Positions 4,674-60,053 of a stretch of 64,000 nucleotides of DNA are shown piece after piece. The translations under genes were made by a program, and so were the position numbers. The notes beneath the pieces are model-generated. The model was not told where the DNA came from. It ran no database searches and was given only the letters and a program-made list of their open reading frames with translations. Position 1 is the first letter of the stretch. The number at the start of each line of letters is the position of its first letter. The DNA comes from a virus. The stretch is taken from positions 96,938 to 160,937 of the IMG/VR virus record IMGVR_UViG_3300042897_000994; one strand, 5' to 3'.

Positions 4674-5828
4674 ATGAACGTTACGAAATTTGAAAAGCCA
4701 GACACTTCCGTGAAATCGGTATATGTGTACTATTTTGGCAAGTATCCGAAGAAAACAAAACCAGCTAAAGATGTAACTTTACCTATCAGGCTTTGGCCAG
4801 AAGCTAAATTTTATATTAGATGTAATACTAAAGGAGGAATCGGAAAGAATAATCTGGAATATTTCTCTAATCTTTACAACGGAACTCAATTTGAGTTAGT
4901 AGAAGAAACTCTCGATCAAGTAGTAGATGCAGAAATGCTCTTTATCCATCATGAAAATTATAATGCATTTGGTGGAGTAGTTCGAGAATGCTGTATTCAT
5001 TTTGCTCAAATTCTAGGGAAATGGACGAAAAAGGCAACAGTTTTCTACAATGATGAATTATTCTCTGGTTTCTATGATATTAGGGATTGGTTAGAATCAA
5101 GATCAACAAATGAAAACTTCTTGAAAAATAATCCTCAAATTTTAGAAAGAGTTCCAAGAAGCGAAAATTGGGAAAATGTTACTCTGCTCATGAATGAAAA
5201 TAAAATCACAGACTGGGCTGATGTACATGTAAAAGACACTCTAACCGATAGAATTGAAGTTTCTTATCTATCAGATATTATTTTATATGATCTTCCTACC
5301 TCGGGAATGAAATATAAAAATAGTTATGAAAAGAAGGGAGTTTATGTTCCTCTGTTTACAGCAGAAAGAATTTCAGTTTGTAACAAACTTTTCAATGGAA
5401 ATGTAGAGATTACTTTTGCTGGATCTCGTTCAGATGAATTAAAAGAAAATATTGCAGGCGATGGAAAATACATTCAGAATTTTGAATTACCTGCATTCTT
5501 GAAAAAATTCGATTGGACTATTTATATCGGAAAGGGAAAGCAGTCTTCATATCTAGGAGCTACTTTTTACGAACCTCTATTAAAAGGTCTTCCTGTTTTT
5601 GTATGGACTGAAACCGACAAACAAAAGAAAGTTTTTGGTGATATCGATTGTTATTTCTCAACTGAAGATCAATTACAAAAGCTTGTTGAAAAGTGGGATA
5701 TGAAAGAACTTTACAAAACTCAAGTAGTACATATCTTCGGAAATGAACCTGAAGAAACTGGAGAATTTGAAAGTGTACAAGCTACAGAAATTCCAAAAGA
5801 AAAGCCTAAAGTAATTGCACTATTCTAA
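4674..5828 (+). CDS. Candidate DNA (hydroxymethylcytosine) glucosyltransferase, GT-B fold
   Basis: 384 residues, close to T4 beta-glucosyltransferase (351). An N-terminal block HHENYNAFGG followed by HFAQILGKW and a strand-Asp (TVFYNDELF) resembles the INFFGG...AQKFMAKY...YYLFTD region of T4 BGT. The C-terminal block ATFYEPLLKGLPVFVWTE (296-313), with a following FSTEDQLQKLVEK, matches the nucleotide-sugar half of the same fold. It ends in KVIALF, almost the same tail as the next gene. Sitting between dCMP hydroxymethylase and a paralogue, it most likely glycosylates hydroxymethylated bases; a surface-glycan role is the alternative. No search was run. Confidence 0.6.
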   Translation: MNVTKFEKPDTSVKSVYVYYFGKYPKKTKPAKDVTLPIRLWPEAKFYIRCNTKGGIGKNNLEYFSNLYNGTQFELVEETLDQVVDAEMLFIHHENYNAFGGVVRECCIHFAQILGKWTKKATVFYNDELFSGFYDIRDWLESRSTNENFLKNNPQILERVPRSENWENVTLLMNENKITDWADVHVKDTLTDRIEVSYLSDIILYDLPTSGMKYKNSYEKKGVYVPLFTAERISVCNKLFNGNVEITFAGSRSDELKENIAGDGKYIQNFELPAFLKKFDWTIYIGKGKQSSYLGATFYEPLLKGLPVFVWTETDKQKKVFGDIDCYFSTEDQLQKLVEKWDMKELYKTQVVHIFGNEPEETGEFESVQATEIPKEKPKVIALF

Positions 5829-6940
5829 TGATTGGAATAATTAGAACTCGACCATCTTTTGCAAGAGTAGAATATGAACCCTATCATTTTTTAAAATGGC
5901 TTGAGCTTTTTCCTCAAAATAGATTTTTGTGGTTGAGTAAAAATCCAGATAAAGTTAAAAAAAGATTCGGAGAAGAAAATTTTCCAGCAATAGAATCTTT
6001 TGATCTTGATGAATATTTTACAATTGAAAGTATCTCTGAACGTGAAAAGTATTTGGATGATTTAATTAAGAGTAAAAATCTAACTCAGATAATTACTATT
6101 CATAATGATATAAAGCAAAACTTTAAAAATGGAGCTGAAGAAAAGGGAACTTCCTTTTTTAACGGTATAGTAGAATCTGATAGTCTACCTACTTTTGTAT
6201 CAGTGAAAAATTTCTTTGAAGTTAATCACATTCCTTATTATCTTTCAAAGAAAATTCCAGTCGTTCATGTTTATGTAGATCCCCAAGAAGCATCTTGGAA
6301 TAGAATGACAGGATGCATTGAAGAAAAATATTTCTTCTATGAGAACTCAAGAATAGATGCAAAGTATCTACCTTTTGTAGAATGGAGTTTTTCAAAGCAG
6401 ATTAAAAAATATTCAAAGAAAAAGAAATTTGCATTTGGATTTACAGTAGTTACTGAAGACCGGGAACCTCTTTATTATCAATTAGCAGATATTAAAAATG
6501 TCAATTTTCTGGTTAAATTTCCGAAGATAGGAATTGATACCACGGTAAAAAGAGCCGATTATGCAGAAATGCTTAAAGAGAGTGAATTTACTCTTGTGAT
6601 TCCTTCGTATGAAGATACTGATTTTAGTAGTATTCGATTTTGGGATGCTATTACAAAAGCTTGCATTCCCTTTATTTTAGATACATGTAAATGGGAACAG
6701 GCTTTTGAGCAACATCCAGAAATAACAAAAATCATAAGTGAAGATCTTTTGGTGAATACTGATACCGTAAAAGAAAAGATTGAAAATACTGATTATGAAT
6801 CCTTGCTAAATAAAATCTGGAATACTCAAGACTGGAAAAATATTCAAGATCTAGAATGGTATCAAGATCAGATTAAGGGAATTTCATTTGCAGATTCTGA
6901 TAAACCTAAACCACCTTCCAAAAATATAGCTTTATTTTAA
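5828..6940 (+). CDS. Second candidate DNA glucosyltransferase, GT-B fold
   Basis: 370 residues, overlapping the previous gene's stop (TAATG). The C-terminal half contains FAFGFTVVTEDREP, an LKESEFTLVIPSYEDTDF segment and FSSIRFWDAITKACIPFIL (266-284), the donor-binding block equivalent to ITLRVWETMASDAVMLID in T4 BGT and to the block in the preceding gene. It ends in NIALF, mirroring VIALF next door. The shared tail, tandem position and hydroxymethylase neighbour point to modified-DNA glycosylation, perhaps a second sugar or opposite anomer. This assignment is inference from motifs. Confidence 0.55.
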   Translation: MIGIIRTRPSFARVEYEPYHFLKWLELFPQNRFLWLSKNPDKVKKRFGEENFPAIESFDLDEYFTIESISEREKYLDDLIKSKNLTQIITIHNDIKQNFKNGAEEKGTSFFNGIVESDSLPTFVSVKNFFEVNHIPYYLSKKIPVVHVYVDPQEASWNRMTGCIEEKYFFYENSRIDAKYLPFVEWSFSKQIKKYSKKKKFAFGFTVVTEDREPLYYQLADIKNVNFLVKFPKIGIDTTVKRADYAEMLKESEFTLVIPSYEDTDFSSIRFWDAITKACIPFILDTCKWEQAFEQHPEITKIISEDLLVNTDTVKEKIENTDYESLLNKIWNTQDWKNIQDLEWYQDQIKGISFADSDKPKPPSKNIALF

Positions 6941-9131: not shown

Positions 9132-9161
9132 AGGAGATATATAAATAGAAAAATATCTCCT
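9132..9161 (+). promoter_or_regulatory. Late-promoter-like box inside a 9-bp hairpin before RimK-RimB
   Basis: AGGAGATAT (9132-9140) is the reverse complement of ATATCTCCT (9153-9161); the loop holds the rest of TATAAATA (9140-9147). GATATATAAA spans 9136-9145, 18 bases before ATG 9164. TATAAATA equals the T4 late-promoter core. Confidence 0.5.
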
Positions 9162-9163
9162 TG

Positions 9164-10651
9164 ATGCCACAAATTAAAAATCTAGACTCTTTCTTATCAG
9201 AAGGAGCTTCAGAACATAAGACAATATTAATTCTTACTGCAAGACCTAAGTCTTCTGATACCTCAGAAAGATTTGTCGAAGAGGCAAAGAAGAGAGGATT
9301 CAAAGCATATGTTGTAGATGTAAATTCAACTAAACTTGTTAAGATTGATGATAACAAGTTTAAAATAGAAAATACAGAAACAGGCAAAGGCCCAACGGTT
9401 AATAGATCAGAAACAGTAGTTCTCAGTAGAAGAGGAGTTCTCTCTAATACATTTACAAAAAATTTAGCGTATAGTTTAGAAAAAGCTAAATTTTTCTGCG
9501 TGAATAACATTCAATCTATGGAAACCTGCGAAAATAAGTATCTTGCAGGGGCACAGTTAGAAGCTGCGGGTATTCCAGTTCCTAAGACTGCGCTTCTACC
9601 AAATGATGAAAGCATAGATGAAGCTATCAAAAAGGTTGGAAGCAAATTTCCAGTTGTTGTAAAACTTCTTTCTGGCACTCAAGGTGTTGGAGTTTCGATA
9701 GTAGATTCTTATGCCTCTCTAAAATCAGTGTATCAGACTTTAAAGAAACTGGACAAGGGAGCAGAAATCCTGATTCAGGAAATGATTCCTTCTGATTATG
9801 ATATCAGAATACACGTTTTAAATAGAAGTTTTGATCCAGAAGATGATTCACCAGAGTCTTCTCAAATTATAGGAGCAATGAGGAGAAATAGAGTAAAGAA
9901 AGACTTTAGAACTAATTTTTCTCTTGGTGCAACAACACAAAAAATTAAACTAACTCCAGAGATCGAAGAAATTGCCAAAAAAGCAGCTAAAATCGTAGGA
10001 TGTGTTTGGTGTGGTGTAGATATTATCATCGACAAAAAGACAGGAAAGCCTTATGTTCTTGAAGTAAACTCTTCACCTGGAACGAAAGGTATCGAAAAAA
10101 CAACTGGAATTTCTGTGACTGGAAAAGTTCTTGATTTTCTTCAAGACCAAGGAAATTGGATGATGGACAGATTTGAAACAGGTTTTAGAGAAATTATCGA
10201 TATTCATGGAGTAGGAAAATTTGTAGCTAAATTCGATACCGGAAACGGTTCTAAGAGTAGTTCGATGCATGTCGATTCTTACGAAATAGAAGGAGATACT
10301 TTAATTTGGAAATTGAAAGGTAAAACTTATAAGAATCAGATCATAGGATATTCAAAAGCTGAAGTTGGAAAGCATACATTCAAAAGACCTATTATGCTTA
10401 TCGATATCAGTGTAGGTGGTAAAGTTCTTAGAGATGTTGAAGTAAGTCCAGTCGATAGATCAGGTAAAAGCACTCCTTTTCTTGCAAATAGAAAATTTAT
10501 GGAAAGAGCTGGTATCATGGTAAATCCTGATAGAGAATTCTATATTACTAACATTTCTTCAGTAGATAAAAACTTTAATGCAGTCGATGCTAAAGGAGAC
10601 AAACATGCTGGTATATCTGTAGACAATGATGTGGAGGACGAAGATGAATAA
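9164..10651 (+). CDS. RimK-like glutamate ligase fused to RimB-like aspartic protease, with capsid-targeting-like N-terminus
   Basis: 495 residues. Residues 20-330 are an ATP-grasp of the RimK family: LLSGTQGVGVSIV, LIQEMIPSDYDIRIHV, and EVNSSPGTKGIEKTTG (300-315), nearly identical to E. coli RimK, which adds glutamates to ribosomal protein S6. Residues 345-460 are a retropepsin-like domain (KFDTG at 356-360, RPIMLIDISVGGK, DRSGKSTPFLANRKFM) of the RimB / ATP-dependent zinc protease family, which trims such tails. The N-terminus IKNLDSFLSEG resembles the T4 packaging peptide MKTYQEFIAE with a predicted cut after LSE. ATG 9164 is preferred to TTG 9161. A late-type box lies upstream. Confidence 0.85.
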   Translation: MPQIKNLDSFLSEGASEHKTILILTARPKSSDTSERFVEEAKKRGFKAYVVDVNSTKLVKIDDNKFKIENTETGKGPTVNRSETVVLSRRGVLSNTFTKNLAYSLEKAKFFCVNNIQSMETCENKYLAGAQLEAAGIPVPKTALLPNDESIDEAIKKVGSKFPVVVKLLSGTQGVGVSIVDSYASLKSVYQTLKKLDKGAEILIQEMIPSDYDIRIHVLNRSFDPEDDSPESSQIIGAMRRNRVKKDFRTNFSLGATTQKIKLTPEIEEIAKKAAKIVGCVWCGVDIIIDKKTGKPYVLEVNSSPGTKGIEKTTGISVTGKVLDFLQDQGNWMMDRFETGFREIIDIHGVGKFVAKFDTGNGSKSSSMHVDSYEIEGDTLIWKLKGKTYKNQIIGYSKAEVGKHTFKRPIMLIDISVGGKVLRDVEVSPVDRSGKSTPFLANRKFMERAGIMVNPDREFYITNISSVDKNFNAVDAKGDKHAGISVDNDVEDEDE

Positions 10652-11615
10652 GATTAAGCTGTTCGAAGAATTTATTCGAGAAGAAAAAAGTCCTAGAATT
10701 CTAGTCTTGAATTTTATGGTTGATAGTGTTTCTGCTGAAGGAACAGAAAAGAAATATGCAGACGGTTACAGAAGAGCAAATAATATTTTGGCTAGTAAGC
10801 TGAAAGAAAAGGGATTTACACCAGTTAACGCAGAGTATTCTGATCTCGTTTTTTCGAACTCGGATCTATTCGTAAACGAAGAGTCTCTATCTTCATTCGA
10901 CTTTGTATTTTTAGGCTTGATGGCCAAAAAAATGGAGTTAGCTAATATCGTAACCGATTATTTAAAAGATAAAAATATTCCTTATTTTTCCTATGGAACT
11001 CCTAGAGACAGGGGAAACAAGCTTGAAGATATGTGGAATCTTTCAAGAGAAGGTCTCCCTTATATTCCAACTTTCGTTTCTGCTTCATTTGAAGAATCAT
11101 TAAACTATATGAAAAATAACAAATGGGATTTTCCAGTAGTTGTTAAAGATATGGATAGTGCAGGCGGAGCAGGAGTTAGTAAAGCCGATGATGAAAAAGA
11201 ACTAAAAAAGCTTTTCGGCATTTCTGATGAAAAACACCAAGGAAACTTTGAAAGCTTTAAAATGATCCAAAAGTTTATTCCAAACGATGGAGATTATAGA
11301 GTTCTTATTTTTGATGGGAAGATTATAGCTATCGCAAAGCGTTGGACTGAAGACAAAAAGGAGTTCAGAAATAATATGTCTTTAGGCGGAAAGGGAAAGA
11401 TGGAAGACCTTCCCCAAAAAGAAAAAGATCTTGCACTAGCTGCAGCTCAAACCACCAGAAAACAGATGGCTGGTGTAGATTTAATACAGTCGAAAGATGA
11501 TAAAAAATGGTACATAATGGAAGTGAACAGCTCTCCACAGTATCACTATTTTTCTGAAATTCAGGACTTAGATTTTCCTCAATTACTTGCGGATTATATA
11601 GAAGACAAACTATGA
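10644..11615 (+). CDS. Second ATP-grasp ligase with capsid-targeting-like N-terminus
   Basis: 323 residues from ATG 10644, preceded by GGAGG, one of the few good ribosome sites here; a longer start at 10626 would read through the upstream gene. The ATP-grasp core includes WDFPVVVKDMDSAGGAGV, IPNDGDYRVLIFDGK, and the metal site MEVNSSPQYH. The substrate is unknown; the fold joins an amine to a carboxylate using ATP. The N-terminus KIKLFEEFIREE fits the T4 capsid-targeting pattern with cleavage expected after IRE. It overlaps RimK-RimB by 8 bases, so the two ligases are probably co-expressed and may act on the same target. Confidence 0.8.
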   Translation: MNKIKLFEEFIREEKSPRILVLNFMVDSVSAEGTEKKYADGYRRANNILASKLKEKGFTPVNAEYSDLVFSNSDLFVNEESLSSFDFVFLGLMAKKMELANIVTDYLKDKNIPYFSYGTPRDRGNKLEDMWNLSREGLPYIPTFVSASFEESLNYMKNNKWDFPVVVKDMDSAGGAGVSKADDEKELKKLFGISDEKHQGNFESFKMIQKFIPNDGDYRVLIFDGKIIAIAKRWTEDKKEFRNNMSLGGKGKMEDLPQKEKDLALAAAQTTRKQMAGVDLIQSKDDKKWYIMEVNSSPQYHYFSEIQDLDFPQLLADYIEDKL

Positions 11616-11746
11616 CAAGTTGGAATATTACAATTCTAAAGGAAACTTCAGAAGGTTTTTTGTGCATGTCGCCGAATGGCGATACTCACTGGATGACTAG
11701 AAATGATTATGAAATCTATCTAGAGAACAGAAAGGAAAAATGTTGA
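11612..11746 (+). CDS. Small hypothetical protein, 44 residues
   Basis: ATG overlaps the ATP-grasp stop (ATGA). The peptide starts MTSWNITILKETSEGF and contains SPNGDTHWMTRNDYEIYLENR, a composition like a folded beta-helix mini-protein, not random frame. No family recognised. It fills the space before an 81-base gap. Confidence 0.5.
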   Translation: MTSWNITILKETSEGFLCMSPNGDTHWMTRNDYEIYLENRKEKC

Positions 11747-11827
11747 AAATAGTTCAATCTAGACTTTTCATTCTCGTCCATTTTGATTATATTTTATTAT
11801 TAAACTTTATTACTACCTTAAATAAAT

Positions 11828-12358
11828 ATGTCGCAAACATACGTGACCTCGGATCATTTTATTGGAAGAACGAATATCCTAAAGATTAACAATAGGTCAT
11901 ATTCTTCTATAGAAGAAATGAACCAAGATTTTGTTAGACGTTGGAACTCTAAAGTTAAAAGCGAAGATACAGTTTATCATTTAGGAAATTTTATATGGGA
12001 TCCTCTTATAGGATCTGAGTATTTACAGTTACTAAATGGAAAGATAATCTTAATTCCAACTCAAAACGATAAAGCTTCAGTTGAACTATCTAGTATAGCT
12101 AAAAATCATCTTACATTAGCTAAAGATAAAATCGTAGAATTGCCTAAATATGGAATCGTAATGTCTCACTATCCACAAGAAGATTGGAATGGAAAGGATT
12201 CAGGGACTATACACCTACATGGCGGAAAATCAGAAATTAAAACAGATCTTACTCTTTCCAGAAGAGTAAATTGTTCTGTAGAACTTTGGGACTATTATCC
12301 GGTAGAAATAAACGCAATATTAGACTTTGTTAAAGAATTTGAAGAAAATAGAAAATGA
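11828..12358 (+). CDS. Calcineurin-like phosphoesterase relative lacking metal ligands
   Basis: 176 residues laid out like small YfcE/AF-type metallophosphoesterases: TSDHFIGRTNIL where SDTHFGHxNI is usual, VYHLGNF for LGDF, LIPTQND for GNHD, MSHYPQEDWNG, and HLHGGKS for HGHxH. The overall frame is clear but several metal-binding positions are altered (Asp to Asn, Asn-His to Gln-Asn, last His lost). It is therefore probably a pseudoenzyme with a binding or scaffolding role, or has different metal needs. It follows an 81-base AT-rich gap and is coupled by ATGA to the sigma factor. Confidence 0.65.
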   Translation: MSQTYVTSDHFIGRTNILKINNRSYSSIEEMNQDFVRRWNSKVKSEDTVYHLGNFIWDPLIGSEYLQLLNGKIILIPTQNDKASVELSSIAKNHLTLAKDKIVELPKYGIVMSHYPQEDWNGKDSGTIHLHGGKSEIKTDLTLSRRVNCSVELWDYYPVEINAILDFVKEFEENRK

Positions 12359-13095
12359 ACGAAACCTACCGGCAACTGGCAATACATTTTAAGGAAACAA
12401 AAGACGAAAAGACATTCAACAAGCTCTATGCTCGTATCAAACCCGGTTTGACAAACTACATCTATAATATCGTTAAAGATAGAGAAGCTGCCAATGATAT
12501 CGTATCAGATACTCTAACTAAATTATACACCTTAATAGACACTTATAATCCCCAATATGAAGTTACAACTTGGCTCTATCGAATAGCTAAAAATGACGCA
12601 ATTCATTTCATTTATTATCGTAACTCTTTTACTTCTTTGAACGCTTTTGCAGATAAAGGATATGAAGCTATTGATAGTGATGATCTAAAAAGATTTGGGG
12701 GAAAATCTTTGAGTATAGACGAGTCTTATCAACAAACAAATGTAGAAAAAGAGCATCTAGAAAAAGAAGAAAATCTACAGAAAAAATATAATATTTGCGT
12801 AGATGCAATAAACTCTCTGAAGCCAAAATATCGCCAGATAATGATGGATCGTTTCTTTGGAAAAATGGCGTATCAAGATATTGAAGCAAAGATAAACAAT
12901 CCAATCTTTGAAAAAATCAAAGAGATAGAAGAAGATTCCAATTTAACTGAGGATGAGAGAAAATATGCTCTGAAGAAACTAAAATCTTCTCTTATAAATC
13001 TTCAAACTGTTAAAAATAGAATACATAGAGGGAGGAAGATTATCCAAGAAATTCTAGGCAATCATCCTATCTTCTGTGTGCGCGAAGATATATAA
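12355..13095 (+). CDS. ECF-like RNA polymerase sigma factor with insertion in region 4
   Basis: 246 residues. Region 2: YIYNIVKDREAANDIVSDTLTKLY, TTWLYRIAKNDAIHFIY. Region 4: INSLKPKYRQIMMDRFF, MAYQDIEAKIN, then an insert of about 35 charged residues, then LQTVKNRIHRGRKIIQE, the recognition helix. Ordinary ECF factors lack this insert. It is a candidate late transcription factor (functional analogue of T4 gp55) for the GATAWATAAA boxes, one of which overlaps its own stop codon; that pairing is inference. Confidence 0.8.
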   Translation: MNETYRQLAIHFKETKDEKTFNKLYARIKPGLTNYIYNIVKDREAANDIVSDTLTKLYTLIDTYNPQYEVTTWLYRIAKNDAIHFIYYRNSFTSLNAFADKGYEAIDSDDLKRFGGKSLSIDESYQQTNVEKEHLEKEENLQKKYNICVDAINSLKPKYRQIMMDRFFGKMAYQDIEAKINNPIFEKIKEIEEDSNLTEDERKYALKKLKSSLINLQTVKNRIHRGRKIIQEILGNHPIFCVREDI

Positions 13096-13096
13096 A
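13087..13096 (+). promoter_or_regulatory. Late-promoter-like box GATATATAAA
   Basis: Exact GATAWATAAA match overlapping the sigma-factor stop codon, 13 bases before ATG 13110, whose product carries a capsid-targeting-like start. Confidence 0.45.
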
Positions 13097-13109
13097 AAAA
13101 ATAAAAATT

Positions 13110-13580
13110 ATGCTCAAGAAGTTTCAAGAATACATTAAAGAAGGTGATTCAGGTGAAGCTCCTCACTATATGTTCTTTGGAAATCTTAAAACGATTCAGA
13201 AAGACGTAAATATGCTTTTATCTCTCCCAGAAGATCAAGTTGCCGCAATATTAGCGAACGGTCATGATTGGGCATCTGATCATATTGCCACATCTAAAGA
13301 TGACATTGAAGAAGTTACTAATTTTTTTTCCGGCGAATTTTCACCAATGATAGGTGAAGGTTTCATAGAAGGTGCTTTAACCGCCGCATTCGAAGACTAC
13401 ACTAAATCTATAAGCAAATTTACAGATCTTCAAAAGACTTTTATCACAATGTCTAAAGACAGAGTAACTGAAAGACAAAAAGTTAAAAATCAGTTGATAG
13501 AAGCTCTAAGAGATTTAAGAGCTAAAGAATCTTATTATAAAGAAGTTCTGCAAGAAGACGCAGACTTCTTTGAGATGTAA
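13110..13580 (+). CDS. Hypothetical protein with capsid-targeting-like N-terminus
   Basis: 156 residues, mainly helical. MLKKFQEYIKEGDSG fits the T4 internal-protein packaging peptide (F-x-E-F/Y-I-x-E), with cleavage expected after IKE. The rest (GNLKTIQKDVNMLL, ILANGHDWASDHIATSKDD, a C-terminal coiled coil TERQKVKNQLIEALRDL) matches no family I recognise. With a late-type box 13 bases upstream it is a candidate internal head protein. Confidence 0.65.
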   Translation: MLKKFQEYIKEGDSGEAPHYMFFGNLKTIQKDVNMLLSLPEDQVAAILANGHDWASDHIATSKDDIEEVTNFFSGEFSPMIGEGFIEGALTAAFEDYTKSISKFTDLQKTFITMSKDRVTERQKVKNQLIEALRDLRAKESYYKEVLQEDADFFEM

Positions 13581-13590
13581 ACTTTATGCT

Positions 13591-13613
13591 CTTTCTTTCT
13601 ATAAAAAAGAAAG
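13591..13613 (+). promoter_or_regulatory. 8-bp hairpin next to a start codon
   Basis: CTTTCTTT (13591-13598) pairs with AAAGAAAG (13606-13613), loop CTATAAA, 3 bases before ATG 13617. It has no U-run, so a terminator is unlikely; it could hide or present the start. Confidence 0.35.
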
Positions 13614-13616
13614 GTT

Positions 13617-14027
13617 ATGTACTGGATAAATTTCTTTAAAGAAATCTCGATATGGAGAATGGTTCGAAGAATCGCTCGCAGAAATCAAAATCTCCTCGAA
13701 GAGAATAATTTAAGAGTCGATTGGGTTGGTAGAATGTACACGGTAGTAAATCTGCCTGATGAGATTATCGAAAATCCCTATTTAGAACAGACTTATGTAA
13801 TTTCTCAATTGAGAGAGTATGACAAAATGTTAATATCCCTAGGATTAGCTGATGTTGTTTATCCTGAATTTTCAAAAATTGAAGGGGAAGCTGCCTATTT
13901 ACTTGTTCTTTATCCCGAATCAGATTATTTAAACTGGTCAAGATTCATCTTTAATCTTCTTATCACTGGATCTGTAATTACTTGTCTCTATTTTTTCTGG
14001 ACTCTCTATCTTTCTAAATATATTTAA
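13617..14027 (+). CDS. Hypothetical membrane-anchored protein
   Basis: 136 residues. A basic amphipathic start (FFKEISIWRMVRRIARRNQ), a soluble middle (VNLPDEIIENPYLEQTYVISQLREYDKML), and a C-terminal hydrophobic segment (FIFNLLITGSVITCLYFFW, about 109-128) that should be a tail anchor. No family recognised. The stop overlaps the nuclease start by TAATG. Confidence 0.6.
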   Translation: MYWINFFKEISIWRMVRRIARRNQNLLEENNLRVDWVGRMYTVVNLPDEIIENPYLEQTYVISQLREYDKMLISLGLADVVYPEFSKIEGEAAYLLVLYPESDYLNWSRFIFNLLITGSVITCLYFFWTLYLSKYI

Positions 14028-14779
14028 TGGGAAAGACCGTAAGTATTAACAACAAGAGATATTATGTTGTTGACGAAAACAATCTAATCTATTTACCTTC
14101 AGTAACTACTATTATAGGTTCAATGACTGATAAAACCGGTCTTGAACAATGGAGAAAAAGAATAGGAGAAGAAGAAGCAGACAAAATTTCAAAATTTAGT
14201 GCCAATCGAGGCACTCTAATGCATACGTATATAGAAAATTTTTTAACATCTGAAAAAGAAGAAAAGAGAGATAAACTGTTAGATTCTTTAGAAGTTACTA
14301 CTACATATGCAAGAAGAAATAATTTTACTGAAGATGAAATAAAAGTCGGTAGAATGCTTTTTTTCAATTTTTATAACGGAGGTCATTTCGATGTCATTAA
14401 AAGAGTAGTAATGCACGAAGAAATGTTATTCTCGCTTAACGGCGGAGGATATGCAGGTAGAGTAGATGATATTTACGAATCTTTGGATTCAAGTATAGTC
14501 ATAGCAGATTATAAGACAAGTAAAAAACCAAAGAAAGAAGAGTGGATAGAAGGATATAAAATGCAAATCAGTGCATATTTTGTAGCTTATTGGGAAATGT
14601 TTGGAATTAAACCCCAAAGAGCAGAAATTTGGATCAGTAATGAACAAGATCATTTTCCACAAATCTTTACAATGGATCAATCGGCTATTAAAGAATACTA
14701 TACAAAATTCATCGAATTAGTAAAAGGCTTTCATTCTAAATTTCCTGTCGAGGTTTCCGAATATATAAATAACAAATAA
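14027..14779 (+). CDS. RecB-like PD-(D/E)XK exonuclease
   Basis: 250 residues. Motifs in order: PSVTTIIG, RGTLMHTYIENFL, HEEMLFSLNGGGYAGRVDDIYE, IADYKTSKKPKKEEW, YKMQISAYFVAYWEMFG. These are the Glu, Asp, D-x-K and Q-x-x-x-Y elements of the RecB/Cas4/MGME1-type nuclease fold. A DNA-end-processing role in phage recombination or replication is likely. The VDD, DYK and QISAY residues are all intact, so it should be active. Confidence 0.8.
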   Translation: MGKTVSINNKRYYVVDENNLIYLPSVTTIIGSMTDKTGLEQWRKRIGEEEADKISKFSANRGTLMHTYIENFLTSEKEEKRDKLLDSLEVTTTYARRNNFTEDEIKVGRMLFFNFYNGGHFDVIKRVVMHEEMLFSLNGGGYAGRVDDIYESLDSSIVIADYKTSKKPKKEEWIEGYKMQISAYFVAYWEMFGIKPQRAEIWISNEQDHFPQIFTMDQSAIKEYYTKFIELVKGFHSKFPVEVSEYINNK

Positions 14780-14791
14780 AAAAAATTTGTA

Positions 14792-15295
14792 ATGTCCGAA
14801 ATCAACGAGAACGAACAAGAACTTCTTAATACTTTTATGAAGAAGAAGTCTGCAGGCGAAGAACCACCAGTAGACAAAAATGCGGAAGAGATGATTTCCC
14901 GTTGGGACAAGAAAAAACAGGGAACTTGCCCACGTTGCGGCAATAAAGTAAAATATTGTTCTTGCCCAGAAGATGACTACTATAGCACAGTAAATGCATA
15001 CAGAATACCAAACACTAAAAAGGTAGAAGTAGAAGAAAACTACGTTAAAACCTTTGAACAGTTTGTAGATGATGGATCATCAAGGCTAGATTCTTACCCC
15101 AAGTCTGTTGCTCAAGTGAACGCTTTTTTAAAGAGTAAAAATGTAGAAGAAATATTGAATAGAGGTAAAGGCTATTTTTACTTTTCTAAAGGTAGATCAT
15201 ATGACTGGCCGTCAACATCGGTTTATGTTTATGGGATAAATGACATGACATTTGAAGAATGGTATGACGAATATAAAAAACTATCTAATTTTTAA
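14792..15295 (+). CDS. Hypothetical protein with a zinc knuckle
   Basis: 167 residues: an acidic helical start, CPRCGNKVKYCSCP (about 46-59), a four-Cys zinc site, then a linker and a globular C-terminus (KGYFYFSKGRSYDWPSTSVYVY). The linker contains VKTFEQFVDDG, which recalls the capsid-targeting peptides but is internal. TATAAATA occurs at 14764-14771, 20 bases before the start. Function unknown. Confidence 0.6.
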   Translation: MSEINENEQELLNTFMKKKSAGEEPPVDKNAEEMISRWDKKKQGTCPRCGNKVKYCSCPEDDYYSTVNAYRIPNTKKVEVEENYVKTFEQFVDDGSSRLDSYPKSVAQVNAFLKSKNVEEILNRGKGYFYFSKGRSYDWPSTSVYVYGINDMTFEEWYDEYKKLSNF

Positions 15296-15298
15296 ACT

Positions 15299-15598
15299 AT
15301 GAATAAAATAGAAAATTTTCTAAACAAACACTTTCAAAAACTCGTAGCTGTTTTTTTGATTTTGATTTTTGTTCAAACATGCGGAGATGATGCTAAGCCT
15401 CTTCGTAAAAGAGTGGAAACTCTATCAGCTAAAATTGATTCTCTAGATCAAAAAGCTATCAGTAAAAAGGATCTTCAAATTGAAGGTTTAAAGGTTGAAA
15501 AAAGACTTATTCAAGCTACTGATAGAAAGTTGATGGACGTAAACAGACAATTTGAAATAGAAAAAGAGATCGAATCTCTACAGAAAAATAAAAAATAA
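15299..15598 (+). CDS. Membrane protein with periplasmic coiled coil (spanin-like layout)
   Basis: 99 residues: a short cytoplasmic start, a transmembrane helix (KLVAVFLILIFVQTCG, about 14-29) and a long charged coiled coil (RKRVETLSAKIDSLDQK ... FEIEKEIESLQ). The Cys after the helix lacks a proper lipobox. This layout resembles inner-membrane spanins, but no outer partner is visible, so only the topology is firm. Confidence 0.6.
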   Translation: MNKIENFLNKHFQKLVAVFLILIFVQTCGDDAKPLRKRVETLSAKIDSLDQKAISKKDLQIEGLKVEKRLIQATDRKLMDVNRQFEIEKEIESLQKNKK

Positions 15599-15599
15599 A

Positions 15600-16157
15600 A
15601 TGGCGACTATTGCTTCACTTTTAAAATCTGCAACCGGATGTGCTGCACCTTCAATGTGCGGAAAATACGGAGCGTTTGTAGATTGCATAGTGGACATAGT
15701 GCAGGGAGAATCTCCCTGCTTTTCTATTCAAATTTACGACGCAAATCTAGAAAGAGCTAATTTAGCAAACTTTGATCTAATTCAAGTTGTTGTAACTGAT
15801 ATTGGTGGAAATACAGTAGGGATTTTTTCAGATCCTAGATTGATAGGATCTGAATTAGATCAGCCCCTCACTGTAGATGATGTAGATGGAATCTTAAGTT
15901 TTTGTATTCCTGGGAGTTTAACTCTGTATGCAATGACTGGTAAATTATTAGCAGACATTAGGTTAACTTCACTAGATTCTGCTGGGAATTCTGATAATGT
16001 TTACATCACATGTCTTTGGATTGGAAACATTAAAGCTACTAGATTTAATAATATGTCTTCTAGTACTTCCTCTGGATCATCTGGTTCTGCTGGAACTAGT
16101 GGAATAGCTCCTGATTATCACGGAACAAGTGGTAATACCATAACAATACCAACATAA
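15600..16157 (+). CDS. Probable virion/fibre-associated structural protein
   Basis: 185 residues, beta-rich (FSIQIYDANLERANL, VVVTDIGGNTVGIF, LLADIRLTSLDSAGN) resembling baseplate or fibre-adaptor domains, ending in a short Ser/Gly/Thr linker (SSTSSGSSGSAGTSG) like the long repeats in the next gene. It directly precedes the collagen-like fibre gene, suggesting the same virion assembly. The family is not identified. Confidence 0.55.
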   Translation: MATIASLLKSATGCAAPSMCGKYGAFVDCIVDIVQGESPCFSIQIYDANLERANLANFDLIQVVVTDIGGNTVGIFSDPRLIGSELDQPLTVDDVDGILSFCIPGSLTLYAMTGKLLADIRLTSLDSAGNSDNVYITCLWIGNIKATRFNNMSSSTSSGSSGSAGTSGIAPDYHGTSGNTITIPT

Positions 16158-16165
16158 GAAGAAAC

Positions 16166-17230
16166 ATGCCATATTCTGATATTTCGCTTATTACTGATTC
16201 ATATCTTTTATTTCAACCGCTTGATTTCATACAGTTGTCACATGATGAAAACAATTATATCATCGGAAGAGTTGTCAGCTATAATCCAAATACCGGAAAT
16301 CTTGTTTTTACTCCTATTCAGGTAAATGGATCGGGTACTTATAGTTCATGGACTGTAGCTCTGTCTGGTTCGCCAGGTTTGTCCGGTTCTTCTGGTCTTA
16401 GTGGTAGTTCAGGAACATCTGGTTCTTCAGGAACTTCAGGTTCTTCTGGTTCTTCAGGAACTTCAGGTTCTTCAGGATCTAGTGGTAGTTCAGGAACATC
16501 TGGTTCTTCAGGAACTTCAGGTTCTTCTGGTTCTTCAGGAACTTCAGGTTCTTCAGGATCTAGTGGAACTTCAGGTTCTTCGGGATCTTCAGGAACTTCA
16601 GGTTCTTCTGGTTCTTCAGGAACTTCAGGTTCTTCAGGATCTAGTGGAACTTCAGGTTCTTCGGGATCTTCCGGGACATCTGGTTCTTCAGGATCTAGTG
16701 GTTCATCAGGTTCATCAGGAACTAGCGGTACAGATGGTTCTAGCGGTTCTTCAGGAACAAGCGGTTCATCAGGTAGTTCAGGAAGCTCGGGTTCAAGTGG
16801 TTCTTCAGGTTCTTCAGGTTCATCTGGATCTTCAGGATCTTCAGGATCGTCTGGGACAAGTGGTACATCATTCAGTTCTCCATATTCAGGAAACATACAG
16901 ATCAACGGACAAGCTTGGGTAACGGCTGATGCTAACGGTAACACCTCGGCAAGCACCACTGTCAATTGGAATGATAGTAATATACAGACATTTACATTAA
17001 ACGCAGCAACTACAACATTTACTTTCAGTAACCCAAATGCTGGTGCCACATATATTCTTATTATAAGACAAAACGCAGAAGGATCTTATACGATTACATG
17101 GCCTGTAACCGTGGCTTGGGCTGGTGCATCTACGCCTACTATGACAGCAACAGCCAGCAGATACGATGTTTACACTTTTGTTTATGATGGATCTAAGTAC
17201 TTTGGATCATATGTACAAAACTTTACATAA
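16166..17230 (+). CDS. Collagen-like fibre protein with Gly-Ser/Thr-Ser repeats
   Basis: 354 residues. Residues 1-66 form a beta-rich head (VVSYNPNTGNLVFTPIQV), residues about 68-234 are an uninterrupted G-x-y array dominated by GSS, GTS and GLS triplets, and residues 235-354 are a beta-rich tip (NIQTFTLNAATTTFTFSNP ... YDVYTFVYDGSKYFGSYV). G-x-y arrays in phages form trimeric fibre shafts; this one has almost no proline and only Ser/Thr side chains, making it a dense potential O-glycan acceptor. It is followed by a LamG-like protein. Confidence 0.8.
   Translation: MPYSDISLITDSYLLFQPLDFIQLSHDENNYIIGRVVSYNPNTGNLVFTPIQVNGSGTYSSWTVALSGSPGLSGSSGLSGSSGTSGSSGTSGSSGSSGTSGSSGSSGSSGTSGSSGTSGSSGSSGTSGSSGSSGTSGSSGSSGTSGSSGSSGTSGSSGSSGTSGSSGSSGTSGSSGSSGSSGSSGTSGTDGSSGSSGTSGSSGSSGSSGSSGSSGSSGSSGSSGSSGSSGTSGTSFSSPYSGNIQINGQAWVTADANGNTSASTTVNWNDSNIQTFTLNAATTTFTFSNPNAGATYILIIRQNAEGSYTITWPVTVAWAGASTPTMTATASRYDVYTFVYDGSKYFGSYVQNFT
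16367..16868 (+). repeat. Collagen-like coding repeat array (9-base GGTTCTTCA-type units)
   Basis: About 500 bases of in-frame 9-base units such as GGTTCTTCA and GGAACTTCA, with larger blocks of 45-100 bases repeated nearly verbatim (for example around 16410-16480 and 16490-16560). Recombination or slippage in multiples of 9 bases would change shaft length without a frameshift. Confidence 0.9.
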
Positions 17231-19230
17231 TGATAGTATTTCCATTTTCATTTATTAAGTCGATTTCAAATCTAGATGAAGGGCTTATTATTCATTTAGA
17301 TGCAAATGATCCTTCAAGTTATCCTGGTACTGGTACAGCAGTATTTGACTTGGCTGGCCCATACGATCACACTTTAACCGGTGCAACTTACACAGTTCTT
17401 AATGGCATAAGGTGTTTTGATTGCACAACAGGAACTAAAAGAGTTGTTGTGGATGGAACTGGTCCTACTTTACCAACTTCGGGATACACCTATATTACTT
17501 GGGCGAGATTGGAAGCTAATCCATCAGCATTCAGAACATTACTTTACACCAATTCACCTAGATACACACCAATCACAATTCTCGATGGAACTGATACTCT
17601 AGGTTATTGGGACAGTGCATTTAGAAGCTCTGGTTACAACACTGCATCTTCAGTCGGGGTTTGGGTTCAATATGCGATAGTCGGAGATAGTTCATCTCAA
17701 ACATTTTACATAAACGGATTACAAGTTGGAAGTTCAATCTCTTATGGAGCAGGGGGAACTGCACATTTCGGATGGGGAAATAATCATAATGTAACCCAAC
17801 CTTGGGGTTATGTTGCAAACTTGTACTTATACAATAGAAAATTATCCTTTCCTGAGATCGTAGAACAATATAACACACTTTCTCCAGCCTTTAATCTGGT
17901 TCTGGATTATAACACATTTAATACATCATCATATAGTGGTAGTGGAACAACTATCAATGATTTAAGTGGTAATAGTAGGAATGGAACAATCACAGGTTCT
18001 CCAACCTGGACTAGTAATTATTTTACTTTTAGTGATGATTATGTAACAACACCAAATTTAAGTTCAGTAATAACAGCACTTAACGAAGTTCATTCAGTAG
18101 AGGTATGGGTATATCCGACTAATAATGGAGTACTGGTTCAATATAATGGTACTCCGACTCCAAATAATACGGGATACCACGCTTCCGCAATAGAAATAGT
18201 TGGTGGTAATTTAGAAGTTGGACTTTGGGATGGAACTGTATTAGCTTCAACCGGCAACATAGGTGCAGTTTCATTTAATGAATGGCATCAAATAGTTTTA
18301 ACCTACAACGGTTCAGTATGTAGGGGATACCTTGATGGGGTATTTAAGGGTTCGGTGAATGTAGCATGGGATTCACCTATGGATTATTCTCTACCATTTT
18401 ATATGAACTTTGGTCCCCAAGATTCTACAAATCAGGGTGACGGAAGTTATTTTGATGGTAGATTTGGTATAATGCGAGTATATAATACCGCTTTAACCGA
18501 CGCACAGGTATTATCTAATTATAATTCTACCGTACCAACTATCGTTAATATAACCACCAATGGTTTGGTATTATATTACGACCCATCAAGTGCATCATCA
18601 TATCCAGGCAGTGGTACAACTATTACTGATTTAAGTGGTAACGGTAGAAATGGAACGATGTCAAATATAACATATACATCCCCTTACTTTGTATACAATG
18701 GTTCTTCGTCTCAAGTTAGTATTGCTGACAATGCATTATTAGAACCGGGGAGTGGGGATTGGACAATGGAAGTATGGGTTAACCAATCTGTTTCAGGTAA
18801 CGATGTTGTATTAGGAAAGTTCGATCCAGGCGGACTCGCAGTAGATGTGAGTTATAGTATAAGAACAACCAATACAACCTATTATGCTCAAATAGGTTCG
18901 GGCTCTGGATCAGGCTCAACACTATTCGTAAACAGTACAAATTATGTAGGAACTATTGGTTCTTGGTCCCAAATAGTTTATGTATTTACAAATGTTGCTG
19001 CTAATACACTTCAAACATTTGTCAACGGTTCAAGCATAGGTACTGTAAGTCACAGTTTACCAAGTATATTAAACACTTCTGCTAATTTATACATCGGTTC
19101 ATATAATAATGGTGAATCTCTACAATACTTTGACGGTAAAATTGGAATAACCCGCTTATACAATAGAGCATTAACTGCATCGGAAGTTTTGGATAATTAC
19201 AATGCAGATAGATCTAAGTATAGTTTATAA
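17230..19230 (+). CDS. Triple LamG/concanavalin-like fibre or adhesin protein
   Basis: 666 residues made of three similar jelly-roll domains (about 1-217, 218-435, 436-666). Each starts with a version of LVLYYDPSSASSYPGSGTTI-DLSGN-GRNGT and ends with DG-GI-RLYNRALT-EVL-NYN, the hallmark of LamG/concanavalin-A-like lectin domains. It probably binds host glycans as a tail-fibre tip. There is no signal peptide and no catalytic acid cluster, so binding is more likely than hydrolysis. The start overlaps the collagen-like gene stop (TAATG). Gly codons favour GGT more than in metabolic neighbours. Confidence 0.8.
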   Translation: MIVFPFSFIKSISNLDEGLIIHLDANDPSSYPGTGTAVFDLAGPYDHTLTGATYTVLNGIRCFDCTTGTKRVVVDGTGPTLPTSGYTYITWARLEANPSAFRTLLYTNSPRYTPITILDGTDTLGYWDSAFRSSGYNTASSVGVWVQYAIVGDSSSQTFYINGLQVGSSISYGAGGTAHFGWGNNHNVTQPWGYVANLYLYNRKLSFPEIVEQYNTLSPAFNLVLDYNTFNTSSYSGSGTTINDLSGNSRNGTITGSPTWTSNYFTFSDDYVTTPNLSSVITALNEVHSVEVWVYPTNNGVLVQYNGTPTPNNTGYHASAIEIVGGNLEVGLWDGTVLASTGNIGAVSFNEWHQIVLTYNGSVCRGYLDGVFKGSVNVAWDSPMDYSLPFYMNFGPQDSTNQGDGSYFDGRFGIMRVYNTALTDAQVLSNYNSTVPTIVNITTNGLVLYYDPSSASSYPGSGTTITDLSGNGRNGTMSNITYTSPYFVYNGSSSQVSIADNALLEPGSGDWTMEVWVNQSVSGNDVVLGKFDPGGLAVDVSYSIRTTNTTYYAQIGSGSGSGSTLFVNSTNYVGTIGSWSQIVYVFTNVAANTLQTFVNGSSIGTVSHSLPSILNTSANLYIGSYNNGESLQYFDGKIGITRLYNRALTASEVLDNYNADRSKYSL

Positions 19231-19252
19231 ATGTAACTATAAATGGCTTTAG

Positions 19253-19262
19253 GATATATAAT
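19253..19262 (+). promoter_or_regulatory. Late-promoter-like box, variant GATATATAAT
   Basis: Differs from GATAWATAAA only at the last base and sits 13 bases before ATG 19276, whose product has a capsid-targeting-like start. Confidence 0.4.
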
Positions 19263-19275
19263 TGAAATATAGTTG

Positions 19276-19659
19276 ATGAAACATATTATGTTATTCGAAG
19301 AATTCATCGGAGAAGCTGGACGCTATCCGTATGTGGATCCAGAAGAAGGTACTGGTAAAAAACCTGAAGGATCCGGTCGTAGACTATACACAGATGAAAA
19401 TCCAGATGATACAGTACCTGTAAAATTTAGAACAAAGGAAGATATAGTAGATACTCTTAACAGAGAAGACTTTAAGTCTAAACCTCATGTTAGACAGTCT
19501 CAAATAATTAATCTCATTCATCAAAGAACTCGAGCTGCTCATAAACACGCTAAAGATCCAAAAGTTATTAAAAGACTTGGAAGAGCTCTAGAATATATTG
19601 AAAAAGTTAAAGAGGAGTCAAAGAAGAAAACAATAGAATTAAACAAAGATAAAAAATGA
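19276..19659 (+). CDS. Hypothetical capsid-targeted protein
   Basis: 127 residues from ATG 19276 (a TTG at 19273 is less likely). MKHIMLFEEFIGEAG is the clearest match in the window to the T4 internal-protein targeting peptide, with cleavage expected after IGE. The rest is basic and helical (LIHQRTRAAHKHAKDPKVIKR, then EYIEKVKEESKKK), as expected for a DNA-associated internal head protein. Identity unknown. Confidence 0.65.
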   Translation: MKHIMLFEEFIGEAGRYPYVDPEEGTGKKPEGSGRRLYTDENPDDTVPVKFRTKEDIVDTLNREDFKSKPHVRQSQIINLIHQRTRAAHKHAKDPKVIKRLGRALEYIEKVKEESKKKTIELNKDKK

Positions 19660-20849: not shown

Positions 20850-21221
20850 ATGTTTTACAATCCAATTAACTTAAGAGAAATGTTTGATCTTTTAGATCGC
20901 GGCCCTCTATGGAAAACTTCTTCAATTACCAAAACTAGAAATTGGGGGATAGAGGCCAGAGAAGTCGAAAACGGATTTGAAGTTGAAATGGCTCTTCCCG
21001 GATATGAAAAAGATGAAATTCATATAGATGCAGAGTCCACAGTCGTAAATGTTTACACCGAAAGGGCTAATAAATGGGGAGAAAAATTTTCACAAAGAAT
21101 TGCAGTTCCTGACCATTGTGAAATTAAAAACATTTCCGCAGAATACAAAAATGGAATTTTAACAATCTTATTTCCTGCCAAAGAAGAAAGAAACGAAAAG
21201 ATTTCTATTCAAATAAAATAA
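20850..21221 (+). CDS. Small heat shock protein, Hsp20/alpha-crystallin
   Basis: 123 residues. The alpha-crystallin domain runs from about 30 to 118: WGIEAREVENGFEVEMALPG, EIHIDAESTVVNVYTER, SQRIAVPD, AEYKNGILTILFPA with the conserved GIL strand, and a C-terminal IQIK resembling the I-x-I anchor. It is an ATP-independent holdase. Hsp20 is common in T4-like phages and is thought to aid folding of virion proteins late in infection. Confidence 0.9.
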   Translation: MFYNPINLREMFDLLDRGPLWKTSSITKTRNWGIEAREVENGFEVEMALPGYEKDEIHIDAESTVVNVYTERANKWGEKFSQRIAVPDHCEIKNISAEYKNGILTILFPAKEERNEKISIQIK

Positions 21222-38023: not shown

Positions 38024-40036
38024 ATGAGTTTTGGAGACGTATACGATGATTCTGAGGATCAGCCAAGAGAAAGGAAGAAGGAAAGAACTAAAACACCAGT
38101 TCTTAATTCCTTCGGGAGAGATTTAACTAAGCTTGCGAAAGAAGGTAAGCTCGACCCCATTATAGGGAGAGAAAGAGAAATAGAAAGAATTACCCAAATT
38201 CTAGGAAGGAGAAAAAAGAACAACCCAGTTCTGATTGGAGAATCAGGTACCGGAAAAACTGCAATCGTTGAGGGTTTGGCAAATAGAATTGTTGAAGGAA
38301 ATGTTCCATTAAGTCTTCAAGAAAAGCAGATCTATATGTTAGATATGACTTCGATGGTGGCTGGCACGAAATATAGAGGTCAGTTTGAAGAACGGATTAA
38401 AGCTGTAGTTGAAGAGCTTTTACAGAATCCGCATATCATTATTTTCTTGGATGAGATTCATACAATGGTAGGAGCGGGAAATTCTTCTGGATCTCTAGAT
38501 GCAGCGAATATTTTAAAACCTGCTCTGGCTAGAGGTGAAATTCAGTGTATCGGAGCAACTACTTTCGATGAATATAGAAAATCAATTGAAAGTGATTCTG
38601 CACTCGAAAGAAGATTTCAAAAGGTAGTAGTAGAAGCTCCATCAGTTTCAGAGACCATTGAAATTATCAAGAATATTAGAAACAAATATGAAGATCATCA
38701 CTTTGTAACATATTCTGATGTAATTATTGAGAAGAGCGTAATTTTAAGCGAAAGATACATCACAGATAGACAATTACCCGATAAAGCTATTGATATTATT
38801 GATGAAGTAGGATCTAGAGTTTATCTAAAGAAGAACAATCTCCCAGCTGAAATTTTGGAAATGGAAACAGATTTAAAAATCGTAGAGTCTAAAAAAATGG
38901 AGAGTGTCCAGAGACAGCAATATGAAAAAGCTGCTCAGCTCAGAGATGAAGTTAAAAATCTAAAGCATGCGATCGAAGATCAAAAAGCAGCATGGAAAGA
39001 CAGGACTCGAAAAAATAAAACCCCAGTAACTGAAAGAGATATCTATGAAGTCATTTCGCATATGACAGGAATTCCGGTAAATGAAATGGGTGAAGATGAA
39101 GCAAGAAGACTACTAGGTCTTACAGAATTTCTGAAATCGCGAGTGATAGGGCAAGATGAAGCAGTAGAAAAAATAGCAGTTACGATTCAAAGAAATAAAA
39201 TAGGCCTGGGTAAGAATAGTCGACCAATTGGAAATTTTATTTTTACTGGAAGTACTGGAGTCGGAAAAACAGAGTTAGCAAAAGCCGTTGCTCGATATAT
39301 GTTTCACGGGGATGATTCGCTGATCAGAGTTGATATGAGTGAATATATGGAAAAGCACTCCATCTCTAAACTTATTGGAGCTCCTCCGGGCTATGTTGGA
39401 TATGATGAAGCTGGAGTGCTTACCGAAAAAGTAAGAAAAAAGCCATACTCAGTAATTCTTTTTGATGAGATTGAAAAAGCACACCCTGATATCTTTAATA
39501 TTCTTCTTCAAGTTCTAGATGAAGGTTTCTTGACAGATAATCATAATAGAAAGATTAACTTTAGAAACACTCTGATCATTATGACTTCAAATCTTGGAGC
39601 TCGAATGGCTTCAGAATCAAAAAATCTTGGCTTCGGATCATCTTCACAACCTGACGATACAAAGAAAAAAGAGATTATGGATAAAGCAATTGAAAAATTC
39701 TTTTCTCCTGAATTTATTAATCGATTAGATGAAGTTATCTATTTCAATACTCTTACAAAAGAAGATATGAGAAAAATTCTTGAAATTCATCTTGTAGATT
39801 TAAAGTCTAGAGTTGAAGAGATTGGATATAAGATTCAACTTACAGATAAAGCAAAAGATCTTATTGTTGAAAGAGGAACAAACGAAAAATTCGGAGCCCG
39901 TATCCTGGGAAGAACTCTACAAAAAATAGTAGAAGATAAGCTCTCAGAAGTTATTCTGAAAGAGAATCCAGAAAAAGGAAAGACTCTTAAAATTGATGAA
40001 AAGAACGAAGAAATCATAGTTACTTTTAAAAAATGA
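38024..40036 (+). CDS. Clp ATPase (ClpA/ClpC-like, two AAA+ domains)
   Basis: 670 residues. First AAA+: Walker A GESGTGKT (72-79), Walker B IIFLDEIHTMVGAG. Then a middle linker with a coiled coil, and a second AAA+: GSTGVGKT and VILFDEIEKAHPDIFN, with ALERRFQKVVV arginine fingers. After TSNLGARMASESK comes LGFG, in the place of the ClpP-binding loop (I/L/V-G-F/L). The N-terminal adaptor domain of ClpA/ClpC is missing, so substrates may be delivered differently. A ClpP homologue lies 1.6 kb downstream. Confidence 0.93.
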   Translation: MSFGDVYDDSEDQPRERKKERTKTPVLNSFGRDLTKLAKEGKLDPIIGREREIERITQILGRRKKNNPVLIGESGTGKTAIVEGLANRIVEGNVPLSLQEKQIYMLDMTSMVAGTKYRGQFEERIKAVVEELLQNPHIIIFLDEIHTMVGAGNSSGSLDAANILKPALARGEIQCIGATTFDEYRKSIESDSALERRFQKVVVEAPSVSETIEIIKNIRNKYEDHHFVTYSDVIIEKSVILSERYITDRQLPDKAIDIIDEVGSRVYLKKNNLPAEILEMETDLKIVESKKMESVQRQQYEKAAQLRDEVKNLKHAIEDQKAAWKDRTRKNKTPVTERDIYEVISHMTGIPVNEMGEDEARRLLGLTEFLKSRVIGQDEAVEKIAVTIQRNKIGLGKNSRPIGNFIFTGSTGVGKTELAKAVARYMFHGDDSLIRVDMSEYMEKHSISKLIGAPPGYVGYDEAGVLTEKVRKKPYSVILFDEIEKAHPDIFNILLQVLDEGFLTDNHNRKINFRNTLIIMTSNLGARMASESKNLGFGSSSQPDDTKKKEIMDKAIEKFFSPEFINRLDEVIYFNTLTKEDMRKILEIHLVDLKSRVEEIGYKIQLTDKAKDLIVERGTNEKFGARILGRTLQKIVEDKLSEVILKENPEKGKTLKIDEKNEEIIVTFKK

Positions 40037-40606: not shown

Positions 40607-40616
40607 GATATATAAA
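40607..40616 (+). promoter_or_regulatory. Late-promoter-like box GATATATAAA
   Basis: Exact GATAWATAAA match 12 bases before ATG 40629 of a secreted nuclease. Confidence 0.45.
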
Positions 40617-48554: not shown

Positions 48555-48614
48555 CGAAGAAATATTGCATGTTATAGCTGTAAGTATCTTCCCCTGATCT
48601 AGCTTTTCATGCAC

Positions 48615-48641
48615 AGGAGCCTCAAAAGAGGCTCCTTTTTT
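48615..48641 (+). terminator. Intrinsic terminator after the phosphoesterase
   Basis: AGGAGCCTC, loop AAAA, GAGGCTCCT and a T tract. The perfect 9-bp stem is GC-rich in AT-rich DNA. Confidence 0.9.
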
Positions 48642-48770
48642 GTCTCAGAAGCTCAAATGTATTAATTTTTATACATTAAATAAAAATGTTTAAAACATGT
48701 TAATATTACCTATTTACTTTTCTAAAACTTTTATTATTTTTGAATTAATATTTAACTTACCTAAAATACA
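48642..48770 (+). promoter_or_regulatory. AT-rich regulatory gap before the RpoD-like sigma gene
   Basis: About 130 bases between a strong terminator and ATG 48771, so it must hold a promoter. It contains palindromes TGTAT...ATACA (near 48658-48675) and ATGTTTAAAACAT (near 48687), possible operators. No GATAWATAAA box is present. Confidence 0.45.
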
Positions 48771-49463: not shown

Positions 49464-49482
49464 ACTCTTCTTCCCTTTCTTA

Positions 49483-49488: not shown

Positions 49489-49492
49489 ACTT

Positions 49493-60028: not shown

Positions 60029-60053
60029 TGTAGATATATAAAAAAAATCTACA
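60029..60053 (+). promoter_or_regulatory. Late-promoter-like box in a 7-bp hairpin before a fibre gene
   Basis: TGTAGAT (60029-60035) pairs with ATCTACA (60047-60053), and GATATATAAA is at 60033-60042, 13 bases before ATG 60056. The arrangement copies the one at 9132. Confidence 0.5.

Follow-up and report, generated by a model that had tools for sequence, protein, structure and literature searches.

Four genes in a 64,000-nucleotide (nt) window of an uncultured virus genome (bases 96,938-160,937 of a 160,937-base record) encode proteins whose N-termini are very probably capsid-targeting propeptides of the phage T4 type, borne by cargo that would be expressed late from GATATATA promoters, cleaved by an S77 prohead protease and injected into the host. 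The genes are labelled here by their window positions (9164, 10644, 13110 and 19276); "record" coordinates refer to the whole 161-kb record, and several counts were made over 104 kb of it. The capsid-targeting signal of T4 is known best in that phage and those closely related to it. While T4-type capsid targeting and processing is a known kind of system, the cargo found here is unusual, its main window members being a hybrid of RimK-like and RimB-like domains (9164) and a second RimK-like ligase (10644), both predicted to travel in the capsid. A search of the literature found no description of this cargo, of its wide conservation, or of the reach of the tag into the huge-phage relatives LR756500-LR756504.

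In the mechanism that we propose, the tagged proteins would be made late from the GATATATA promoters, and the aromatic pair of the leader would draw them into the core of the assembling prohead. The S77 prohead protease would then cut after I/L-x-E, and the freed mature proteins would remain with the DNA and be ejected into the next host. There the cargo enzymes may act on host proteins, possibly ribosomal ones, at the start of infection.

T4-type leaders and a prohead protease

The first ten residues of T4 IPIII are enough for packaging, and mutations of the peptide have assigned residues 4 and 7 to targeting and residues 8 and 10 to processing (PMC9026906). After injection, IPI and IPIII work in the host, where IPI blocks a restriction system (PMC9391042). 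All four window peptides, which were confirmed together with their open reading frames as first described, carry the targeting (Y4, F7) and processing (I8, E10) residue classes at the T4 spacing. Outside the window, the peptide at record 39,423 agrees with T4 IPIII in the place of all four residues: its two aromatic residues stand at positions 4 and 7, its I at 8 and its E at 10. The record phage shares with T4, in which gp21 cuts the capsid-targeting signals of IPII, IPIII and Alt, both the IPII/IPIII motif and spacing (aromatic, two residues, F/Y, I/L, x, E, often A) and an S77 protease.

The preliminary description, which had proposed T4-type capsid targeting, held that a genome without a prohead protease would refute it. 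That refutation fails, as an S77 (T4 gp21-type) protease is encoded in the record. The spacing of the motif, the conservation of the 9164 peptide and the GATATATA box before head and tail genes support the same proposal. The protease matches Pfam PF03420 (E 1.3e-16, above the family cut-off), which was matched in 0 of 14 control genomes, and the PHROG head maturation protease (E 1.4e-43); aligned with T4 gp21 and the protease of Pelagibacter phage Mosig, it keeps the catalytic His71, Ser127 and Asp148. Among the 28 records holding relatives of the four proteins, 20 have an S77 match, and the remaining records may be fragments. Other T4-type head genes of the record encode a DNA end protector, portal, major capsid protein and head closure, and a tail sheath gene is also present. 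Moreover, in the N-terminal part of the major capsid protein, this phage and its relatives have in common a conserved [LIM]xE with Asn as the next residue (QLNE, ELYE, QINE, QMNE), which falls near FLSE of Mosig and FLTE of T4 gp23 and is consistent with an I/L-x-E-like cleavage rule.

The record phage is very distant from T4. Its protease, unlike that of T4, forms a fusion with a scaffold-like region, and the putative cargo comprises the RimK/RimB-like hybrid, the second RimK-like ligase, a cupin, a glycine-zipper-like protein and a DUF3008 protein. In phiKZ and SPN3US, a gp21-type protease likewise removes propeptides from ejected head proteins, but those propeptides are mostly long and follow an S/A-x-E rule, whereas the predicted ones here have 10-13 residues and I/L-x-E (PMC5694885, PMC9026906). 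By protein, the closest named relatives are the huge uncultured phages LR756500-LR756504, which have a homologous protease-scaffold fusion, a homologous major capsid protein and numerous N-termini of this kind, with other cargo sets; a nucleotide-collection comparison of the 13 kb tested found no matching phage.

The tag across the proteome

A search of the N-termini of the whole proteome, which the preliminary description had proposed, returned the strict motif ([FYLW]xx[FY][ILV]xE in residues 2-19) in 7 of the 172 called genes of the record, three of them outside the window. Permuting each N-terminal column among genes gave 0.8 expected, and none of 2000 permutations reached the observed number; over the 104 kb, 4 tags were observed against 0.5 expected (0/500 permutations). 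The excess of a looser motif over the whole record is weaker (7 vs 1.7 expected, 2/2000). As a positive control, T4 returned exactly ipII and ipIII. Two of the huge relatives are enriched (LR756501, 15 tags vs 1.0 expected; LR756502, 6 vs 0.8), and the stretches from Mosig, LR756500, P-SSM2 and T4, each taken alone, show weak or non-significant enrichment. Staphylococcus phage K, which belongs to a different phage family and served as a control, gave 2 hits against 0.55 expected, which is not significant, so single motif hits do arise by chance. Within the record, the tag is common to otherwise unrelated proteins, its 7 genes belonging to several different families. The tagged 536-aa protein at record 48,557-50,167, which lies behind a GATATATA box, contains a second, internal leader-like stretch (SFEEFSESLINEA; also given as MKLIPESFEEFSESLINEA) and resembles a fusion of two tagged proteins.

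The 9164 enzyme and its conserved leader

Conservation of the 9164 tag is the strongest line of evidence for capsid targeting. While a single-sequence scan found no relatives of 9164, an alignment query found 80 viral loci, and the tag is kept in 65 of 69 distinct viral relatives and, once these are clustered at 80% identity, in 18 of 20; in the homologue of the cultured phage Mosig it reads MQVQPFKNYLEE^A, and Methylophilales phage Melnitz is another cultured relative that bears it. Entropy in the clustered set is 0.5 and 0.76 bits at the aromatic pair, 1.25 at I/L and 0.0 at E, compared with about 1.9-3.1 in most flanking positions, and in 13 of 18 the residue after the Glu is Ala. When 19 sequences are aligned, no column among the first 83 is invariant except E13, the predicted cut site; the next is T84. 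Of 71 distinct RimK-like homologues taken as controls from genome records of bacteria and archaea, on the other hand, the loose motif occurs in 2 and the strict motif in 1 (Fisher P 4e-32 for viral against cellular frequency; 7e-15 with clustered phage sequences). The tag also occurs on some genome-collection contigs closer in sequence to the phage proteins. Further, the predicted structure leaves the leader disordered (residues 1-16 with a predicted local distance difference test score, pLDDT, below 50) and outside the folded enzyme, the RimK fold beginning at about residue 20.

Judged by its domains, the 9164 protein combines a RimK ligase with a RimB-like peptidase domain. The ligase domain matches Pfam RimK (E 4.6e-38) and the PDB structures 7qyr, 4iwx and 5zct, and its best Foldseek hits are RimK (5zct/7qys). 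The RimB-like domain has profile matches to PDB 9g59 and 2pma, and a Pfam search with the single sequence gave no match for this domain; in the 19-sequence alignment its F357, D358 and N361 are invariant and T359 and G360 nearly so. Bacterial RimBK hybrids and RimK-RimB ribosome-modification enzymes (PMC11957791) likewise pair a RimK-type glutamate ligase with a DTG retropepsin-like RimB-type peptidase, but the order of domains is reversed, the ligase coming first in the 9164 protein, and the 9164 protein in addition bears the capsid-targeting-like leader. An S21 gene, looked for in the record as a link to phage bS21, was not found.

A distant homologue of the enzyme has been seen in virions. 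YerA41_066 of Yersinia phage YerA41 is 34% identical to 9164 over 90% and adjoins ribonucleotide reductase genes; by gene order it was equated with g112, a "ribosomal protein modification protein" detected by liquid chromatography-tandem mass spectrometry (LC-MS/MS) in purified particles (PMC7354516 Table 3). The detection speaks for an association of this enzyme family with virions rather than for a role of the tag.

The other three families

For 10644 and 13110, the tag in this phage is clear and its family-wide conservation not. The cleavage site is well conserved in the 9164 and 19276 families and only partly so in those of 13110 and 10644. In the 13110 family, the strict tag was rejected as a rule, and the aromatic pair alone is clearly above chance (41 of 63 relatives vs 16 expected); a test of the domain junction was weak (20 of 40 vs 13 by shuffling, P 0.01). 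Many 13110 relatives have, often between an F..FNE leader and the YMFF domain, a basic WIKDAIKxPGALKKSL...KKGEKIP...LAKTLK module.

The GTGKK domain of the 19276 family is found in many uncultured phage proteins, alone or within long proteins. All 13 dissimilar leaders ahead of it have [ILVM]xE in the last 14 residues before the domain, compared with 3.9 by shuffling and at most 9 in any of 2000 shuffles (0/2000 reach 13), which suggests processing at the leader-domain joint and, putatively, inside polyproteins as well. Long uncultured-phage proteins, one of 971 aa, do resemble polyproteins, with nucleotidyltransferase-like, GTGKK, KKGEK/LAKTLK and other modules lying between I/L-x-E tripeptides. 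Other recurring leaders, MNLQENIxRIKEMMGLIxES and MKKIIRLTESxLxxLVKRVINES, replace the F..F tag, and both end in I/L-x-E before the domain.

A late-promoter-like box

The preliminary description had placed a GATAWATA box before three of the four genes. A box does stand directly upstream of each, at 20, 15 and 15 nt from the ATG rather than 18, 13 and 13, and in all three it is present as GATATATA; GATAWATA itself occurs in the window at chance frequency (13 vs 12.8 expected) and was dropped as the promoter, with GATATATA adopted instead, because the majority of GATAAATA copies do not stand ahead of a start. The record has 24 forward copies of GATATATA and 1 reverse copy, compared with 4 and 3 for a control pattern read backwards, and 12 of the 15 forward copies in the 104 kb lie 14-20 nt ahead of a start codon. 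Behind such positioned copies are the genes for the protease, the tail sheath and a head-closure-like protein as well as 9164, 13110 and 19276; the copy of the capsid gene sits 94 nt upstream. An [AG]ATATATA box is found within 40 nt of 6 of the 7 tagged genes, whereas of all 172 genes 24 have one. The remaining tagged gene, 10644, shares 8 nt with the end of 9164, which is consistent with one operon, as had been suggested for the fourth gene and a box-bearing neighbour.

Given its strand bias and its fixed distance before head, tail and tagged genes, GATATATA looks like the late promoter of this phage, the late timing being taken from the company of head and tail genes. The late promoter box of T4 is TATAAATA instead, a -10 box read by a gp55-type sigma factor. 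The window holds two sigma-factor genes that differ from each other (12355-13095 and 48771-49463), and either could read the GATATATA promoter.

Alternative explanations and implications

The present analysis supplied the presence of the protease and the tags, the conservation of the tag, the position of the promoters and the identity of the domains; virion presence of one distant homologue comes from the literature. Packaging, cleavage and injection in this phage, as well as the target of the enzymes, are what we infer. Several points weigh against capsid targeting and injection as proposed. The strict tag is present in 1 of 8 relatives of 10644, in which the cleavage site varies, and within the first 25 residues of 7 of 63 distinct relatives of 13110. 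The packaged YerA41 homologue, rejected as a tagged example, has an N-terminus without a recognisable tag, so its packaging would follow another route or signal. The RimK-like gene of Mosig is flanked by regA and the DNA polymerase gene and has no such box. Finally, the YxxYLAEN repeats of the scaffold region, which are similar to the tags, are not kept as such in the LR756500 homologue and may be no more than coiled coil; the idea that the YxxYLAE repeats prove cleavage sites was dropped because that homologue, while keeping the repeat, loses many of the Glu positions.

It is conceivable, if unlikely, that the N-terminal peptide does serve as a signal for sorting or docking, yet is left uncut by the prohead protease or leads elsewhere, be it scaffold co-assembly without ejection, a phage compartment or the tail. 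The relatives of 13110, which keep the aromatic pair better than I/L-x-E, and the varying cleavage forms in the 13110 and 10644 families fit such a signal, but the P1 Glu of the 9164 family is invariant, its P1' residue, like that of T4 IPII and IPIII, is Ala in most cases, and [IL]xE is the one thing common to the dissimilar leaders of the 19276 family. Quite improbable is a second alternative, under which the RimK-like enzymes would do their work at a late stage inside the infected cell, with ribosomes or virion proteins as possible targets, the tag being minor or vestigial. Although their place in a late-promoter operon and that of the Mosig gene among replication genes would agree with this, narrow constraint on the tag across relatives of about 35% identity argues that it is not vestigial, and the YerA41 homologue is present in the virion. 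That short Phe/Glu-rich N-termini merely happen to resemble the T4 peptide is scarcely credible, since the two chance-level hits in phage K and the moderate excess of the loose motif stand against a strict motif unmatched in 2000 permutations, the association with the box and, above all, the conservation in relatives, which largely refutes chance.

It is possible, though we put this forward tentatively and at somewhat less than even chance, that a large group of phages, from marine T4-like to huge ones, pre-load the capsid with an enzyme of the ribosome-modifying type, a RimK ligase joined to a RimB-like peptidase, and inject it, so that modification of host proteins precedes any phage gene expression, and that the cargo of related phages now takes the form of polyproteins cut at I/L-x-E joints. 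A conserved and readable tag could allow sequence-only prediction of the proteins of uncultured phages that are carried in the capsid and reach the host before others, and capsid-borne tagged proteins are candidate takeover and anti-defence proteins. With the RimK/RimB-like enzyme among the most consistently tagged proteins, a phage strategy suggests itself in which the host ribosome, or some other host protein, is modified early.

Coordinates and other features

Table 1. Features of the leaders, cargo, promoters and protease, in window coordinates unless marked as record.
Feature	Position	Strand	Remarks
GATATATA late-promoter-like box	9136..9143	+	20 nt before ATG 9164
Putative capsid-targeting propeptide MPQIKNLDSFLSE^G	9164..9202	+	RimK/RimB-like hybrid; predicted cut after E13
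RimK-like ATP-grasp (alpha-L-glutamate ligase) domain	9263..10138	+	residues 34-325
RimB-like (ATP-dependent zinc protease / retropepsin-like) domain	10160..10534	+	residues 333-457; DTG motif
Putative propeptide MNKIKLFEEFIRE^E	10644..10682	+	second RimK-like ligase
Second RimK-like ATP-grasp protein	10683..11612	+	Pfam RimK E 3.1e-26
Sigma-factor gene (Sigma70_r2)	12355..13095	+	possible late regulator, not part of cargo
GATATATA box	13087..13094	+	15 nt before ATG 13110
Putative propeptide MLKKFQEYIKE^G	13110..13142	+	
Small helical protein	13143..13577	+	conserved YMFF...GHDWASDHIATSKDD domain, which recurs in many large uncultured phages
GATATATA box	19253..19260	+	15 nt before ATG 19276
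Putative propeptide MKHIMLFEEFIGE^A	19276..19314	+	
GTGKKPxGSxRRLYTDE domain	19315..19656	+	mobile module of uncultured phage proteins
GATATATA box	40607..40614	+	14 nt before ORF 40629 (untagged, secreted-looking protein)
GATATATA box	60033..60040	+	15 nt before ORF 60056 (tail-fibre-like, untagged)
Tagged cupin MLKRFEEFLNEE	record 5,774-6,172	-	outside window
Tagged protein MRTFSEYINES	record 39,423-39,779		glycine-zipper-like hydrophobic stretches; outside window
Tagged 536-aa protein MISSFDDFLDEG	record 48,557-50,167		DUF3008 module; outside window
S77 (T4 gp21-type) prohead protease	record 69,662-71,482		fused to scaffold-like region

Just upstream of 19276, a protein with collagen-like GSSGTSG repeats (window 16166-17230) is followed by one with repeated segments that look LamG-like by eye (17230-19230). 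An open reading frame at window 20850-21221 resembles, again by eye, a small heat-shock protein, and Mosig too encodes one, at a distance of about 3 kb from the RimK-like gene. A 670-aa protein at window 38024-40036 matches the PHROG 'ATP-dependent protease' (E 2.9e-243).

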